From contig DASRFG010000032.1 in assembly GCA_035651655.1 (NCBI GenBank), positions 1 through 62,270 on the forward strand: a stretch of 62,270 nt of DNA, read 5' to 3'. Made by a program: the position numbers and the translations under genes. This document shows, piece by piece, positions 2,419 through 15,667 of the stretch. Positions within the stretch are counted from its first letter, which is position 1. Every line of letters begins with the position of its first letter. The notes below the pieces were generated by a model that had not been told where the DNA came from, did not search any database, and saw only the letters and a program-made list of their open reading frames with translations. The stretch comes from Terriglobales bacterium. Lineage in GTDB: Bacteria; Acidobacteriota; Terriglobia; Terriglobales; Acidobacteriaceae.

Positions 2419-3246
2419 TCAATGTTCCTCATGGTAATCAGAACGCCGACTCGCGCGGCGCTCCTCTTCTTCTTCGATATCGATGAGTTGTTGCTCATCC
2501 TCCCACCATAAGAGGACGGTCATCGAATCGGAACCCGTTTTGAAACAGCTCTCGCGAATGTAGTACTTCTCAGCCCCGTCGCGATCAAACCAGCGGTCCG
2601 CGCGCACGTCTCCGCTCTTGTCGTCCCCAAGCTTGTTTGCGAGGAGGGTTGCGGCCAGTGAATGAGGATCGGGCCGAAGCCGAGGAAAGAGCGAAGAAGG
2701 AATGTCCTTGCCGGACGGGATGAACCGCTTTTTTCGCCCCTGCTCATAAAAGACAAGCATCGCGGGAAACGAACCGTGCTGAACAAGCCTAATCGCGGTC
2801 GCGGTGCGGCTCATCCTGAACACGCCCGCGAGGTATATGACCGTTTCAAGTGTGATCGGGCGTCCCTTCGCGAGCGGAACGAACATGCTGAGCGGCAGCA
2901 GGAGATCGCTCGCGAAGCGGTTGGCGCGGGTCTCGGCGTTGTTGCCCGTCCACTCGGAATTCATTTGGCTCTTGGAACAGCCGAAAGCGTTCTGCCCGCG
3001 GTCCTTCATCCAGTGCCCCAGCTCATGACCGGATGAGAAACGCTGGCGTCCGGCAATGGATTTGCTGTTGACGGTGATGATGGCTTTGTTGCCAGATCCG
3101 ACAATGTTCGCTTCGCACCCCGTCAGCGGCTGACGCAGAATTGTCGCGCCGCACGCGAAGGCGATGGCATCGATGTCGAGATCCTCCGGCTCCGTGATCC
3201 CCAGCAGGCCGAGAATCTTCTCCGGCGGGGTGCCCGCTTCAATCAC
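2419..3246 (-). CDS. ImmA/IrrE family metallo-endopeptidase
   Basis: The 275-residue protein has the zinc peptidase signature HELGH at residues 74-78 and a downstream glutamate ligand (E105, in AETRANRFASDLLLP), the pattern of the ImmA/IrrE family. Characterised members cleave repressors in response to stress or DNA damage. The C-terminal 120 residues are variable and end in a Glu/Asp/His-rich tail. Its start overlaps the stop of the upstream gene by four bases, so it is translationally coupled as the last gene of a three-gene leftward operon (sigma-like, helical protein, peptidase). A repressor substrate in the divergent ubiquitin-like module is possible but not shown. Confidence 0.88.
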   Translation of the reverse strand: MIEAGTPPEKILGLLGITEPEDLDIDAIAFACGATILRQPLTGCEANIVGSGNKAIITVNSKSIAGRQRFSSGHELGHWMKDRGQNAFGCSKSQMNSEWTGNNAETRANRFASDLLLPLSMFVPLAKGRPITLETVIYLAGVFRMSRTATAIRLVQHGSFPAMLVFYEQGRKKRFIPSGKDIPSSLFPRLRPDPHSLAATLLANKLGDDKSGDVRADRWFDRDGAEKYYIRESCFKTGSDSMTVLLWWEDEQQLIDIEEEEERRASRRSDYHEEH

Positions 3247-3674
3247 TTTTCCTCCGGGAGGAGACCAAGCTGGGCAAGTTTTTTGAGGTTCGACTCAATG
3301 TCTTCATCGGAGAATTCCGAAAGTTCGCGGTGCTGCAGCGTGAACGCCGGTTGCAGTTGCCCTGCTTGGGCGAGTGCTGCCATAAACAACCTTCTTCTTC
3401 CCTCAGCGGTTTTCGGAAGGTCAAAATGCCCTTCTGAAATACTGGCGAGTTCACGCTTGTAACCTTCCTTCGCCTCCGCGAGTGTTTTTTGCTGATGCGA
3501 CTTGAACACGTTCAGCAGAAAACCTTTGAGTCGGGTATTCCCTTCTCCGGGATCGCGGCCCTCCTCCCGTGCTGTTTCGATCAGTTCATCTCCCGGAGCA
3601 CTTCGGATATAGTCTCCGAGGTAATCGAGAAGTTTTTCAAGCCGTTCTGTGTGACTGCGCTCCTTACCTGCCAT
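3243..3674 (-). CDS. hypothetical helical protein, middle gene of peptidase operon
   Basis: The 143-residue protein is charged, lacks Cys, signal peptide and membrane segments, and is predicted to be mostly alpha-helical. It overlaps the sigma-like gene upstream by 11 bases and the ImmA/IrrE gene downstream by four bases, so the three are almost certainly co-translated. By position it may be the partner or substrate of the peptidase. I do not recognise a family, and no helix-turn-helix is obvious. Confidence 0.75.
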   Translation of the reverse strand: MAGKERSHTERLEKLLDYLGDYIRSAPGDELIETAREEGRDPGEGNTRLKGFLLNVFKSHQQKTLAEAKEGYKRELASISEGHFDLPKTAEGRRRLFMAALAQAGQLQPAFTLQHRELSEFSDEDIESNLKKLAQLGLLPEEK

Positions 3675-4332
3675 TGCGTTGCTCCATAATCTTCTTCACG
3701 CCGCGCTGGATGCGGCGCATCGTTGTTCGGAATTCCTTTTCGGGCATTTCGAACTCTGCCCGTATCGAGGGCCCGTCCATGCCGTCCTGGAATCCCATGA
3801 TGAGAATTCCTGCTTTTTCGTCGTCGGCGAAAGCCGCTTCGATTTCTTCCACCAGCGCCTTGTTCTGCGCTTCGTGTTCGGCGCTCACTTCCGCTTGAAT
3901 GAGCGCCTGTTCGGGATTGAGGGCCGGCGCCGCAAGCCCGTCAAAGGGAGAAACGATTTTCCCTTCCTCATCGGTTCTCGTCAGCTCGGATTCCAGCGAG
4001 GCGTATTCCGGCAGGTCCTTGTTCCGCTCTCGATAGCCTGCCCATTCGCTGGCAATGCTCCAGATCGTGCCAATGACGCACTTCGTGAAGCTGATACGGT
4101 CCTTATACCAATGCCGCTTCCTGTCGAGAATTCTCATTAAAGCTTCCCCGATGAGTTCTTTGGCATCACGGCGGTTGGCGGCGCGCCCTATGCGATAAAT
4201 GCGGTTCCGTGCGCTCTGCTCAATGCGTTCGGTGTCTTCGAGCGTTAAAGCCTCGATCGCCTGCTGGATTTCGCCGGGGGTGGCTGGCTCAGGTTTCCGC
4301 GGAGCTGGTGAAGGCTTCGGCTTGGTTTTCAT
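3664..4332 (-). CDS. sigma-70-like regulatory protein
   Basis: The 222-residue protein has a Pro/Lys-rich N-terminal tail. A helical segment at about residues 35-110 resembles sigma region 2 (ARNRIYRIGRAANRRDAKEL and a WSIASEWAGYRERN helix). A C-terminal helix-turn-helix-like part at about 165-218 resembles region 4. It is atypical: the linker is long and the usual ECF signatures are weak. ATG at 4332 follows GGAG; a TTG at 4371 would add 13 residues. It heads the leftward operon and faces the ubiquitin-like operon across a shared 200-bp intergenic region, so it probably regulates one or both. Confidence 0.6.
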   Translation of the reverse strand: MKTKPKPSPAPRKPEPATPGEIQQAIEALTLEDTERIEQSARNRIYRIGRAANRRDAKELIGEALMRILDRKRHWYKDRISFTKCVIGTIWSIASEWAGYRERNKDLPEYASLESELTRTDEEGKIVSPFDGLAAPALNPEQALIQAEVSAEHEAQNKALVEEIEAAFADDEKAGILIMGFQDGMDGPSIRAEFEMPEKEFRTTMRRIQRGVKKIMEQRNGR

Positions 4333-4370
4333 TCGCTCCACGGCCTTCGTTTTCCGGCCCTCCCTTATCA

Positions 4371-4445
4371 ATGCTCAGATTTTCGGTATCCGTGACAAAG
4401 AAAAAATGACGCGCGCATTGTCGCGCATCCAGGAATTCTGAGCAT
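4371..4445. promoter_or_regulatory. 9-bp inverted repeat in the divergent promoter region
   Basis: ATGCTCAGA at 4371-4379 is repeated in inverse orientation as TCTGAGCAT at 4437-4445, centred between the leftward sigma-like operon and the rightward ubiquitin-like operon. The 57-base spacing could allow a looped or dimer-of-dimers operator. A second small repeat, GCGCGC/GCGCGC-like, lies inside. No clean -35/-10 pair is evident. The operator role is inference. Confidence 0.35.
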
Positions 4446-4535
4446 AGACCACTATGGGCAAATAAAACCAGCCAGCAGCGGCGCCCAAAGCTGGGACGGG
4501 CCTTCAGCTCCCGCATGGCAAGAGAGGGTACCAAA

Positions 4536-4802
4536 ATGACTCCGGGCAATGAGAACAAAAACGAGAAGCTGGTAATTTTCGTGAACGGGAAGAAGAGGAC
4601 GAGCGAGGAGGACGGCGTCACGAATCCAATGTCCGTTGACGCCATCGCACGGTCGGCCGGACTGACGGGCGACACGGCCGTCGTGCGCCGGCGGCAGGGA
4701 GAAGACGGGCCGGTGGGAGATCCGCTCACGGGCGAAGTCCCGATTAAGAACGGCGAGCACTTTGTGGTCACGCGAAGGAACGTCGAAGGAGGCCGCCGGT
4801 GA
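4536..4802 (+). CDS. ubiquitin-like modifier (single multiubiquitin-type domain)
   Basis: The 88-residue protein fits a beta-grasp ubiquitin-like fold: a strand-rich start (LVIFVNGKK), a central helix (MSVDAIARSAGL) and a late strand (HFVVTRR). It ends in a diglycine, G85-G86, followed by two arginines. A C-terminal GG is the hallmark of E1-activated modifiers; the extra RR would need trimming, which the JAB domain two genes on could do. ATG at 4536 is chosen because GAGGG sits seven bases upstream; an ATG at 4515 is less well placed. Its stop overlaps the GTG start of the E2 gene. Confidence 0.75.
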   Translation: MTPGNENKNEKLVIFVNGKKRTSEEDGVTNPMSVDAIARSAGLTGDTAVVRRRQGEDGPVGDPLTGEVPIKNGEHFVVTRRNVEGGRR

Positions 4803-5177
4803 CGGCGGAGATCAAGGCCCGCGTGACGCGGGAACTCGAAAAAATCAGCTGGAAGACGAAGCTCATCGAGACTCCCGACGCGGTCATTTACCTCGGCCTT
4901 CCCAGCACGCTCGGCGTCGCAAGCACCGACGTGCTGGTGCTCGTGCCCGGCGGTTATGCGCAGTCCATGCTCGACAGTGCTTGTCTTCCGCAGGGCTCCC
5001 CTCTCATCGGCGTGGTGAAGGGGCAACCGTCAAACGTTCGTGGCTGACGGAAGAAGCTGGGTTCCCATCAGCTATCACCCTCATAATGGCGGCGGGGCTC
5101 CCGGCTGGGATCCCACGTGGCATGGTTTTCATACTTACCTGGATGAACTGGTGTCATGGCTATCGGTCAGAAGGTAA
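4799..5177 (+). pseudogene. E2/UBC-like conjugating protein, single-base frameshift
   Basis: GTG at 4799 overlaps the stop of the modifier gene. The first frame gives about 75 residues of a prokaryotic E2-like protein (LVLVPGGY segment, C62 in SACLPQG) and then hits a stop at 5045-5047. Removing one G from the run at 5030-5033 joins it to a frame that continues with DGRSWVPISYHPHNGGG and a WHGFHTYLDELVSWL end, giving a normal 125-residue protein that stops at 5177. Both halves look equally protein-like. This is a recent mutation, a sequencing error or programmed slippage. The end overlaps the E1 gene by 22 bases. C62 is a candidate catalytic residue, not proven. Confidence 0.7.
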
Positions 5178-6646
5178 AGCAAGCGGCCGTCATGCGGATC
5201 ACGGGCGCTCTGCGCGAGCGCCTGGAATCCCTCATCTTCTCGCGCTATCCCGACAAGGAATGGGCGACGTATTTTCTTTTCGGGACGCATCGGAGGCCGG
5301 ACGGCATGGTCATCACGGTCGCCGATCTCATCGAGCCGGAAGGCGATGACCTCGATTCAACGACAGCGATTGTCAGATTCACCGAGCCGTACTCCTTAAG
5401 GGCGGCACTGGAAAAACAAAAACGCGGACTGTGTGTCGGCGTCATTCATTCCCATCCGCAAGGTTATGGCGTGCGTCCCAGCCCGCTAGACGATGACATG
5501 GACTCGTATTACGGGGACTACTTTTCCGCCTTTGGCAAGGAAGGAGCGTATTTCAGCCTGATTTTTTCCAAGACGAAGGAAGGCGATATCCATTTTTCCG
5601 GGCGCGGATGGAACGATGGCCATGAATTTCAGTTAACCGAGATCGTGACGGTCAGCGACAAGGAGATTCGCCGGGAGACGGCCCGGTGCAAGCCGTCCTC
5701 TGCGTCGCATTCCCACAATGAATACCGGGAGCGCTTTGAGCAAATCTACGGCAGGGAAGCAGCCGCACGCCTCCGCAATGCGCGCGTCGTTATCATCGGC
5801 GCCAGCGGCACGGGATCGCCAGCGGCCCATGTGCTTGCGCGTGCTGGCGTGGAAAACTTCGGTCTTATTGATCCACAGCAATTGGCAAAATCGAATCTGG
5901 AAAGGCTTCACGGCAGTTATCAAGCTCACTTTGCAAAAGGCGAGGCGGAAGCGCCTCTCAAGGTTGAGGTGGTGCGGGATCTCATAAAAGCCATCAATCC
6001 CAGGGCGAACGTGACCTGCATCGCAGGCAACATTGTGCAGCCGCTGGCGCGGGATTATGTCGTCGGCGCGGACCTCGTCATCTGCTGTACGGATACGAAC
6101 CACAGCCGGACCGCCATCAGTGAACTCGCCTACCGCTACCTGGTTCCCGCTATCGACATGGGCGTCGTGTTTGAATCAAAGAACGGTTCCATAACAGGAG
6201 AGATCGGGCGCATTACGTTCTATTCTCCCGGCGGGCCATGTGTCCATTGCCTGGAGCTTGTGGATCCGTGGCGCGCAACTGTGGAGCTCATGTCAGAGGA
6301 AGAAAAGGATTGCCGCCGGCGCGAAGCGAAAGAGGCCGAACTCCGCGGCGATGACGCTAGCGTTTACTGGAGAGATGTCCCTGAACTTCCCACCGTGGGA
6401 CACTTCACTTCAATGGCCGGCGCGCTCGCCGCCAGCTACGCGATCGGATGGCTGACGGGCAAGTTCACGCCGCCGCATCGCTACTTTGAATTCAACATCC
6501 TCGCACCCAATTTTGATTACGTGGGCTTCGATGCGCTGTGCCGCTCGGGGTGTTATTGCGAGACATTAATCGGGCATGCGGATCAGGGGGCGCATGCAGC
6601 TCTGATTTCTGCGCCGCCGCACTGGCCTGACGCCAGGCTCGTTTGA
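5156..6646 (+). CDS. JAB (JAMM isopeptidase)-E1/ThiF fusion protein
   Basis: The 496-residue protein joins two enzymes. Residues 1-165 are a JAB/MPN+ metalloprotease: H98-S-H100, S109 and D112 give the JAMM zinc motif, with an upstream acidic residue near E60. Residues 190-496 are a ThiF/E1 adenylyltransferase: a nucleotide loop at G215-ASGTGS, an acidic D239, a CCTDTN segment near 310, and zinc-binding cysteines C362/C365 with C462, C466 and C468. C386 is a candidate thioester cysteine. The enzyme would trim the modifier C-terminus and activate its diglycine for transfer to the E2. The gene is coupled to the E2 gene, forming a compact modifier-E2-JAB/E1 operon. Confidence 0.88.
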   Translation: MAIGQKVKQAAVMRITGALRERLESLIFSRYPDKEWATYFLFGTHRRPDGMVITVADLIEPEGDDLDSTTAIVRFTEPYSLRAALEKQKRGLCVGVIHSHPQGYGVRPSPLDDDMDSYYGDYFSAFGKEGAYFSLIFSKTKEGDIHFSGRGWNDGHEFQLTEIVTVSDKEIRRETARCKPSSASHSHNEYRERFEQIYGREAAARLRNARVVIIGASGTGSPAAHVLARAGVENFGLIDPQQLAKSNLERLHGSYQAHFAKGEAEAPLKVEVVRDLIKAINPRANVTCIAGNIVQPLARDYVVGADLVICCTDTNHSRTAISELAYRYLVPAIDMGVVFESKNGSITGEIGRITFYSPGGPCVHCLELVDPWRATVELMSEEEKDCRRREAKEAELRGDDASVYWRDVPELPTVGHFTSMAGALAASYAIGWLTGKFTPPHRYFEFNILAPNFDYVGFDALCRSGCYCETLIGHADQGAHAALISAPPHWPDARLV

Positions 6647-7086: not shown

Positions 7087-7131
<45 letters not shown>

Positions 7132-7179
7132 TTCTTTTCAAGCACATGAACGGCATTTCTGGTTTTTCGTCTATAGCGA

Positions 7180-7534: not shown

Positions 7535-8344
7535 ATCTCGAGCAAGACCATCACCGGACTGAGCACCGCATTTCTGTATGATTTCGAGAACGTCGTTCAG
7601 GAGCTATCTGGAACCACGCCGACTGCGAATCTGCTCACCGGTCTCGGGACGGATGAAATATTTTCTCGACTGGACTCTGGAGCTACAATTGGGCCGTCAT
7701 CCTTCTTGACTGATGCGCTTCACCACACGATTGCCTTGACGAACTCAAACGGCGGCATTCCAACCCAGTACACGTATCAACCGTTTGGAAATACCACTCT
7801 CGTCGGAACGGGAAATCCTAACTCGTTTCAGTACACCGGGCGAGAAAATGACAATGACAGTCTATATTTCTATCGCGCCAGATATTACAGCCCGACATAT
7901 GGGCGATTTCTGGCTCAAGATCCAATTGGCTTTGCCGGGGGCATAAACCTGTACGGCTATGCGGGAAACGATCCCATTGACTTCACGGATCCGTTTGGCT
8001 TAAAACCTAAAATTCCGGCGTGTCCTCCATGGGCCGTGCAGTGCCCCTTGCCACCCGGATCGCCGAGACCAGACCCCAAACAGCAGAAGAAAGACTACGA
8101 TAAATGTATTAATGATCAACGCGTACAGTTGGCCCATGCTATGAAAAACGCCGCGGACAATGCCGCGGAAGCTCTGCGTAATCATCCTAATTTCGGAGAG
8201 ATGCCCGAGTCTCCAAGCTTGGGAGACGCGCTCATGCCGCTTGTGGGCACGATCGGGGACACTTCAGACTTCTGCCATGAACAATTCCCACTTGTAGATC
8301 TAGCTCCGGGGGGGGATGAGTATACCCGATATCCATTAAAGTGA
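7535..8344 (+). pseudogene. Rhs/YD-repeat protein C-terminal fragment with toxin-like tip
   Basis: The frame is open from 7535, after a stop, with no start codon until ATG at 7706. It begins with YD-repeat-like sequence (FLYDFENVVQELSG, then FLTDALHHTIALTNSNGG) and continues through the Rhs core terminal motif (YFYRARYYSPTYGRFLAQDP, NLYGYAGNDP, ending DPFGL). About 108 variable residues follow, where polymorphic toxin tips normally sit; I do not recognise the tip. Full Rhs proteins exceed 1000 residues, so this is an orphan C-terminal cassette. The membrane protein downstream is in the position of an immunity gene. Confidence 0.75.
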
Positions 8345-10059: not shown

Positions 10060-10104
<45 letters not shown>

Positions 10105-10152
10105 ATATTTTCTAGAACATAGAATCATTGTAGGGGCTAGCAAAAAATCCAC

Positions 10153-15592: not shown

Positions 15593-15667
15593 GGGCCCGT
15601 AGCTCAGCGGTAGAGCAGGGGACTCATAATCCCTTGGCCCCAGGTTCGAATCCTGGCGGGCCCACCA
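15593..15667 (+). tRNA. tRNA-Ile2 (anticodon CAT, predicted lysidine-modified)
   Basis: A 75-nt cloverleaf: acceptor GGGCCCG/CGGGCCC, D-arm GCTC...GAGC, anticodon stem GGGGA/TCCCT with loop CTCATAA, variable loop TGGCC, T-arm CCAGG-TTCGAAT-CCTGG, discriminator A and encoded CCA. The anticodon CAT could be Met or Ile. The ACTCATAATC context and TTGG variable region resemble the minor tRNA-Ile whose C34 is converted to lysidine by TilS to read AUA. Elongator tRNA-Met is the alternative. Confidence 0.9.

Follow-up and report, generated by a model that had tools for sequence, protein, structure and literature searches.

The controllers of immune operons named in PMC13373217, CapW, CapH+CapP and CapK+CapS, are repressors or act on one. 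CapP is a protease that is activated by single-stranded DNA (ssDNA) and cleaves a DNA-binding repressor (PMC13373217), and PprI is likewise an ssDNA-activated protease (PMC10904395). Among 544 Bub operons, CapW or CapH+CapP were found in 219 and CapK+CapS in 59, and most of the CapK+CapS genes found adjoin Bub operons (PMC13373217). In the CalpL/CalpT/CalpS system, a protease cuts an anti-sigma factor and frees a sigma factor of the extracytoplasmic function (ECF) type (PMC11417357). Here we describe a locus of a Terriglobales bacterium (assembly GCA_035651655.1, genome size 4.07 Mb), which lies on the 62,270-nt contig DASRFG010000032.1; the contig was analysed as a whole and is called the window below. 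Its minus strand carries, in this order, the genes for a sigma-like protein, a helical protein and an ImmA/IrrE peptidase (together called the cassette), and facing them on the plus strand are an open reading frame (ORF) for a ubiquitin-like (Ubl) protein, the remnant of an E2-like gene and an ORF for a JAB-E1 fusion protein. We consider it fairly probable that the cassette is a portable, sigma-based controller of immune operons that works as follows.

At rest, the helical protein would bind and silence the ECF-like sigma factor. The signal would most likely be ssDNA, the activator of CapP and PprI, arising when DNA is damaged or phages replicate; in response, the ImmA/IrrE peptidase would cleave the helical protein. 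The freed sigma factor would direct RNA polymerase to a bipartite promoter present in two divergent copies, raising its own operon and turning on the immune operon opposite, in the window the Ubl, E2 and JAB-E1 genes. The order of the genes (sigma factor, small cytosolic partner, protease), the likeness of the protease to CapP and the paired promoters together point to such a regulated proteolysis of an anti-sigma factor. The preliminary description of this DNA had suggested that cleavage of a regulator triggers the modifier module; the cleavage step fits the reported action of CapP (PMC13373217), but the controller is not specific to the modifier system. The features of the locus are listed here.

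2419..3246, minus strand: CapP-like ImmA/IrrE metallopeptidase with intact HExxH (Pfam Peptidase_M78 8.7e-12; PADLOC capP 3.6e-55).
3243..3674, minus strand: all-helical partner of 143 amino acids (aa), proposed anti-sigma factor and peptidase substrate (without family above cut-off; predicted model with a predicted local distance difference test score (pLDDT) of 85.9).
3664..4332, minus strand (longest frame to 4371, TTG): ECF-like sigma factor with predicted sigma2 and sigma4 (profile and predicted-model comparisons).
4370..4398, minus strand: promoter-like bipartite element towards the sigma operon, TTGTCAC-N15-GAGCATT (dyad count, matrix, genome pattern search).
4418..4446, plus strand: promoter-like bipartite element towards the Ubl operon, TTGTCGC-N15-GAGCATA (dyad count, matrix, genome pattern search).
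4515..4802, plus strand: small beta-grasp Ubl-like ORF with GGRR end; start perhaps ATG 4536 behind AGAGAGGG.
4799..5177, plus strand: E2-like gene of the Prok-E2_E type, frame-broken at about 5020-5047 (frame reading; profiles from relatives).
5156..6646, plus strand: JAB-E1 fusion protein (ThiF 1.6e-33; Prok-JAB 0.0013).

Relatives were collected by a peptidase-alignment scan of a genome collection of 84,980 species, which yielded 159 relatives, 80 of them kept; the scan used patterns taken from cassette peptidases and therefore leans towards cassettes. The sigma, helical and peptidase genes stand in this order, with the helical gene in the middle, at 75 of the 80 peptidase loci (L049-L128 only, several of which apparently repeat earlier-sampled loci, such as L049 = L034 and L050 = L035; the near-copies L087 and L088 are both among the 75). 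Outside this count are three loci in which the helical gene was not found (L070, L115, L124), one in which the sigma gene was not found (L102) and one at a contig edge (L117). The three-gene operon, which the preliminary description had proposed from the window, is borne out, and its order is not a chance arrangement. In 76 cassettes, window included, start codons can be chosen that make the sigma and helical genes overlap by 4 nt in 47 and the helical and peptidase genes in 44; both counts are upper estimates, because the starts nearest to such an overlap were taken. Starts within 30 nt were found in 76/76 and 74/76, respectively. Gene overlap of this kind is usual for sigma/anti-sigma pairs.

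Sigma matches were obtained in two of 61 close relatives (the window and the weak L045) and in 12 of the 299 genomes of a class sample, window included; the other 11 of these all have adjacent helical and peptidase genes, and in one cassette, L044, the sigma frame is in two pieces. In a phylum sample of 396 genomes, the sigma family profile scored E<1e-13 in eight genomes, all with the whole cassette, and gave weaker matches in 240 further genomes, which are probably ordinary ECF factors, with at least one diverged cassette (L191) among them. Titles of the records that contain the cassette name Acidobacteria, Nitrospira, Rokubacteria, Actinomycetes, Bdellovibrio-like bacteria, Paraliomyxa, Desulfovibrio and alpha-, beta- and gammaproteobacteria. 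Two Comamonadaceae plasmids (L047 and L048, Polaromonas and Rhodoferax) carry it with DUF2188 genes on the divergent side, with IS21 genes in between in L047, and of 15 viral contigs with a relative of the peptidase, two have the cassette. On L160, one of these two, it is accompanied by a JAB-E1 gene and by a fusion of Ubl and E2. It is hardly credible that the three genes are an ordinary housekeeping ECF sigma operon beside a decaying modifier operon and conserved by common descent only: the broken E2 gene of the window would agree with decay, but the recurrence at 75 of 80 loci, in several phyla and with exchanged partners, largely refutes this explanation.

The longest frame of the sigma gene starts at 4371 (TTG), and the ATG at 4332, which suits the promoter-like element and a GGAG, is probably the true start. 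Pfam searches of 65 members of the sigma family (E<=0.01) found Sigma70_r2 in 13 and Sigma70_r4_2 in one, and gave no sigma-domain match for the window's own member. In hhalign, the family profile aligned with six ECF factors of the source genome at Prob 96.5 and E 7e-10 over 184 columns, and a 63-row profile gave six matches with E<0.01 among PDB sequences, all of them sigma factors (best sigma-H, 1.3e-5). The AlphaFold model (pLDDT 91.8) has two helical domains, and no sigma3 appears in its helix list. When the two parts were compared by VIA, sigma2 matched an ECF factor-NepR complex (Z 7.8, root-mean-square deviation (rmsd) 3.3, 83 residues) and sigma4 matched CnrH (Z 7.9, rmsd 2.5, 66 residues), Z values that are middling if taken alone; the best 50 rows were all sigma factors or entries named RNA polymerase complexes or models. 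As judged by these several profile and model comparisons, the gene product is a sigma factor, with the ECF layout of sigma2 and sigma4 without sigma3.

The peptidase of the window is a CapP-type metallopeptidase with the HExxH motif. Its match to the PADLOC capP model extends over 8-249; as this is nearly the whole length, peptidases of the window type may have been collected before. The family profile found CapP (7t5t, 1.1e-19) and IrrE (1.3e-7) in the PDB, and HExxH is kept in 77 of 78 peptidases that adjoin a helical gene. For the helical protein, searches of Pfam, NCBIfam and PADLOC gave no family above cut-off. Its predicted model has six helices; Foldseek matched it to nothing under E 3, and the highest Z from VIA was 4.8, for 42 residues of a single helix. 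A 19-residue stretch over mean hydropathy 1.6 was found in none of 91 helical units (repeat loci included). From its place between the other two genes, the helical protein would be both anti-sigma factor and peptidase substrate. The sequence cannot tell which partner is cut, and the peptidase might instead cleave the sigma factor itself, with the helical protein as adaptor or chaperone, so that the switch would shut down or reset the immune operon. We regard this as quite unlikely, as the order of sigma factor, partner and protease is that of sigma/anti-sigma units, and as keeping toxic immune genes off at rest would require that the sigma factor be held and not destroyed on stress.

The shared element was first noticed by eye; then all 4-mer dyads with gaps of 10-24 were counted in the 300 nt upstream of the sigma gene at 82 loci, of which 74 were kept after near-copy removal. 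The top dyad was TGTC-N19-GCAT with its reverse complement, found towards the sigma gene in 14, towards the facing operon in 21 and in both directions in 10 of the 74 loci (1.5 to 1.8 of 74 in random segments). With a leave-one-locus-out matrix, scores of at least 12 were reached towards the sigma gene in 38/74, towards the facing operon in 47/74 and in both directions in 34/74 loci; the corresponding rates were 2.7% for random and 3.0% for shuffled segments of 300 nt. The element is asymmetric rather than palindromic and nearly fixed in its spacing, and its copies point outwards to both start codons. In 47 loci both sites score at least 7; here the two sites of one locus differ at 2.8 of 16 block positions, compared with 5.7 of 16 between loci (as low in 0 of 5000 permutations, local base composition not being controlled), and the gap has the same length at both sites in 38.

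In the window, the two sites (4398-4370 on the minus and 4418-4446 on the plus strand) are 19 bp apart and both read TTGTCRC-N15-GAGCATW, a pattern found exactly at these two places only in the 4.07-Mb genome; one-mismatch matches were found at three further places, those of a control pattern at one. When three mismatches were allowed, the 62-kb window gave 6 matches with 4.55 expected, which is not above chance, and weight is therefore placed on the two exact sites. The plasmid loci L047 and L048 have a strong element in the facing direction, and the site pair of the viral contig L160 shares the block AGCGCAAC, under the matrix threshold. These patterns strongly suggest that the bipartite element is the promoter of the cassette sigma factor, which, as far as can be read from sequence, would have one promoter-like element before both its own operon and its target, as is expected of an ECF factor.

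The same sites have to be weighed under a repressor model akin to CapH+CapP, in which both promoters would be blocked by the sigma-like protein, acting by itself or jointly with its helical partner, until cleavage by the peptidase on DNA damage de-represses them. The known CapP substrate is a DNA-binding repressor (PMC13373217), and like sites before both operons would also fit an operator. However, the sites are asymmetric, directional and built of two blocks at near-fixed spacing, pointing outwards, and the protein retains sigma2 and sigma4. Operators of repressors are usually palindromic. On balance the repressor model is unlikely, and a sigma factor that activates both promoters is preferred.

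The cassette is not tied to the Ubl modifier system: most cassettes face something else, such as CBASS (cyclic oligonucleotide-based antiphage signalling system), Pycsar (pyrimidine cyclase system for antiphage resistance), Bil-like or other operons. Partner classes were assigned from 30 proteins scanned against PADLOC and 20 against Pfam (some against both; two are from L002, outside the 75), and the remaining loci were classed by phmmer clustering or by our own iterated profiles. On the divergent side, known or candidate defence families were found in 48 of the 75 loci, with L079 (PADLOC 'beta') as a potential 49th. Genes of the Ubl, E1, E2, JAB or DUF6527 type lie at most 7 kb upstream of the cassette in 25/75 loci (L049 being scored as Ubl from a 54-aa fragment at a contig end) and downstream in 2/75; the sequence available was 425 kb upstream and 411 kb downstream, and the upstream Ubl/E1-type genes are divergent in 45/45 cases. 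L059 is BilD-like (1.4e-25), as are L050 and L052 by clustering, all inside these 25 loci, and L091 has a BilD-type E1 (1.2e-130) beyond them. CBASS cyclases occur in 13/75 loci (three clusters, one member scanned in each), CBASS effectors only in 2/75 (L099 scanned, L110 by cluster) and Pycsar in 4/75 by cluster, the scanned member matching PycC at 1.7e-227; single defence partners are PDC-M48B (L051), AbiEii (L063) and NsnA (L082). A family of 314-341 aa stands close to the cassette on the divergent side in 6/75 loci (L068, L083, L093, L101, L108, L112); its scanned member, L093, had no PADLOC or Pfam match, and the family is a candidate single-gene defence effector.

That the two operons are functionally coupled, as the preliminary description had supposed, is upheld by the divergent bias of the Ubl/E1-type genes and by the shared bipartite element. 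Another reading is that the three genes are an independent stress or defence unit, which simply accumulates in defence islands and has no regulatory link to the operon that it faces. This would agree with the 17 of 75 loci that have no recognised immune partner (11 of them unscanned) and with the DUF2188 genes beside the two plasmid cassettes. It is nevertheless very unlikely, given that Ubl/E1-type partners are so unevenly divided between the divergent and the downstream side, with every upstream one divergent, and that the shared element is directed towards the partner no less often than towards the sigma gene.

A peptidase tree was built with 76 rows; over the 58 that carry a label, the type of partner has to change 23 times, so that the controller is exchanged among immune systems. 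The clade of the window (Shimodaira-Hasegawa-like approximate likelihood ratio test, SH-aLRT, 99) includes Ubl twice, Bil-like once and PDC-M48B once (the last labelled on the tree with the E1-E2 group), and the closest named relative of the window peptidase, with 77% identity, is L049, an Acidobacteria locus from a metagenome-assembled genome. Partner types are also clustered, with 31 changes when the unnamed group is included, a number as low in 0 of 200 shuffles. We think it rather likely that the cassette and its promoter element are swapped together, as one unit, among Ubl, Bil-like, CBASS, Pycsar and unnamed defence operons, and that cassette and motif can be used to find new ones.

Several results weigh against the proposed controller. 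A first, 14-row sigma profile had no significant match in the PDB (best 0.64), and a Foldseek search of the PDB with the whole sigma model was not significant, with sigma factors at the top (best E 0.046), probably because of a flexible two-domain layout. The helical protein has no likeness to known anti-sigma factors that sequence and fold searches could detect (CalpT was outside this comparison), and the weak sigma relative L045 (7e-7) has neither partner beside it. Matrix scores stay below 7 towards the sigma gene in 23/74 and towards the facing operon in 15/74 loci, close relatives contribute sites that are partly dependent even after near-copies were removed, and among loci outside the training set both sites reach 7 in 3/8 (3/7 if L198 repeats L066). 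No defence partner could be named in 17/75 loci, of which 11 had no library scan; the six that were scanned are L075, L120, L123, L127, L128 and L072, the last with an RNB nuclease domain in a protein of 602 aa. Finally, 3/75 cassettes lie near Tn7/Mu-like transposition genes, clearly so in L087 and its near-copy L088 and weakly in L076, and these are perhaps DNA-damage-switched transposons.

In L087 the transposition genes match Mu-transpos_C and rve, and in L076 a weak TnsB-like match was seen. A clade of eight loci (L119-L123, L125, L127, L128) consists of seven from Sphingomonas and one labelled Bacillus sp. 2B10, which may be mislabelled. The cassette is present in all eight, and no recognised immune partner was found on its divergent side; of the five loci scored, four have both elements over 12 and the fifth only the facing one.

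The facing genes of the window gave a mixed picture. The Ubl protein, which the preliminary description had taken to end in GG, ends in ...EGGRR, with two residues after the GG. Neither it nor the E2 frame 4799-5047 had a match in Pfam, NCBIfam or PADLOC at E<=1, so that both family ties rest on profiles built from relatives: the Ubl protein scored 18.5 bits (best of 200 shuffles 6.2), a value perhaps inflated, as the profile may still have contained fragments of the close relative L034/L049, and the E2, with X placed at the frame change, scored 12.6 bits (best of 200 shuffles 3.9). The family tie of the proposed E2-like gene is weak, and its reading frame is broken: the first frame stops at 5047, and the remainder lies in another frame, at about 5031-5177. 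By eye, no clear slippery site for a programmed frameshift was seen, there being no close relative to compare, and a search of the source genome with PF14462 (Prok-E2_E) gave no match. Whether the break is real or a misassembly cannot be told; because of it, the Ubl operon downstream of the controller may be impaired in the source genome, as read from this assembly.

The JAB-E1 ORF was recovered as first described, with a clear ThiF domain and a Prok-JAB match of 19 bits, under its cut-off of 25. The JAMM motif HxH...SxxD is likewise present, with 8 residues between HxH and S. The usual spacing is 7 residues. The glycine loop of E1 is intact in 14/14 aligned proteins (window included), with N and R in 13 and 14 of the 14. 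The E1 cysteines, said to be intact as well, are kept to differing degrees, with C311 in 13/14, C362 in 12/14 and C466 in 11/14, but C365 in 6/14 and C468 in 5/14; the CxxC and CxC pairs resemble metal ligands more than a catalytic cysteine. Fusion of JAB to E1, which had been offered as the distinguishing mark of the locus, is no such mark: among the 396 phylum genomes, 13 contain Prok-E2_E (12 above cut-off), and by our own profiles E1 and JAB form one ORF in 13/13 of these operons.

The cassette adjoins two of the 13 Prok-E2_E operons (one of them much diverged) and another ImmA-type gene adjoins three, and in the other eight our own profiles detected neither within the 5-16 kb fetched. The preliminary description had held that absence of the sigma/ImmA operon beside homologous modifier operons would count against the module, and the outcome on this point is mixed; the coupling of controller and modifier operon is real and recurrent, yet not obligatory. 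These counts agree with the published Bub figures in pointing to a choice of controllers (PMC13373217).

A direct repeat of 61 nt (93%) follows directly downstream of the module, at 7087-7147 and 10060-10120, about 3 kb apart; by eye it resembles a tRNA gene's 3' end with the T arm, and its copies may be what is left of the attachment sites of a mobile element. The only tRNA that ARAGORN found in the window is a tRNA-Met at 15593. The fragment at 7706-8344 looks by eye like the C-terminal end of an RHS-repeat protein.

As a sigma factor, the cassette regulator would act positively, by committing RNA polymerase itself; in this it would compare with CalpS, but with a CapP-like protease as its driver. 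As a widespread module with a readable DNA signature it is open to direct test, and module and signature offer a way to defence operons that lack a known defence gene, such as those with the 314-aa family. In the literature searched, outside which key papers lie, no description was found of a sigma factor, helical protein and CapP-like peptidase combined over immune operons.

Among the closest described systems is CapH+CapP, which likewise has a CapP-like ImmA/IrrE peptidase, adjoins an immune operon and is portable, but which works through one helix-turn-helix (HTH) repressor (PMC13373217). In place of a single HTH repressor the cassette has two genes, for the helical protein and an ECF-like factor with the predicted sigma2/sigma4 fold, and its promoters look sigma-activated; neither of the two proteins had a PADLOC match at E<=1, the presence of a capH model in that library being unchecked. 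The CalpL/CalpT/CalpS system of type III CRISPR resembles the proposed unit in combining a protease with an anti-sigma and an ECF sigma factor and in answering infection by transcription, but CalpL is a Lon-SAVED protease switched by cyclic tetra-adenylate, whereas the cassette protease is of the ImmA/IrrE type (PMC11417357). Specifically, the window enzyme belongs to Peptidase_M78. The cassette adjoins CBASS, Pycsar, Bil-like and Ubl operons instead of type III CRISPR. CapK+CapS (a kinase and a STAS-winged HTH repressor) and CapW/BrxR (a WYL repressor) are also portable, DNA-damage-linked controllers beside the same kinds of operon, but as described they have no sigma factor (PMC13373217). 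Bub operons are named there as well, and in our reading the Prok-E2_E relatives in the phylum, with Ubl, E2 family E, E1 with JAB and often DUF6527, are Bub operons. Unlike them, the window has no DUF6527 match, a single Ubl domain, the GGRR end and a broken E2, so that of Ubl, E2 and E1 in one operon the E1 is clear, the Ubl weak and the E2 both broken and weak; BilD was not among the best 25 of 30 PADLOC families for the window E1, in which JAB is fused, whereas BilABCD has it as a separate protein. The parts of the cassette are thus of known kinds, and the whole would be a sigma-based member among the controllers of adjacent immune pathways, distinct from CapH+CapP.

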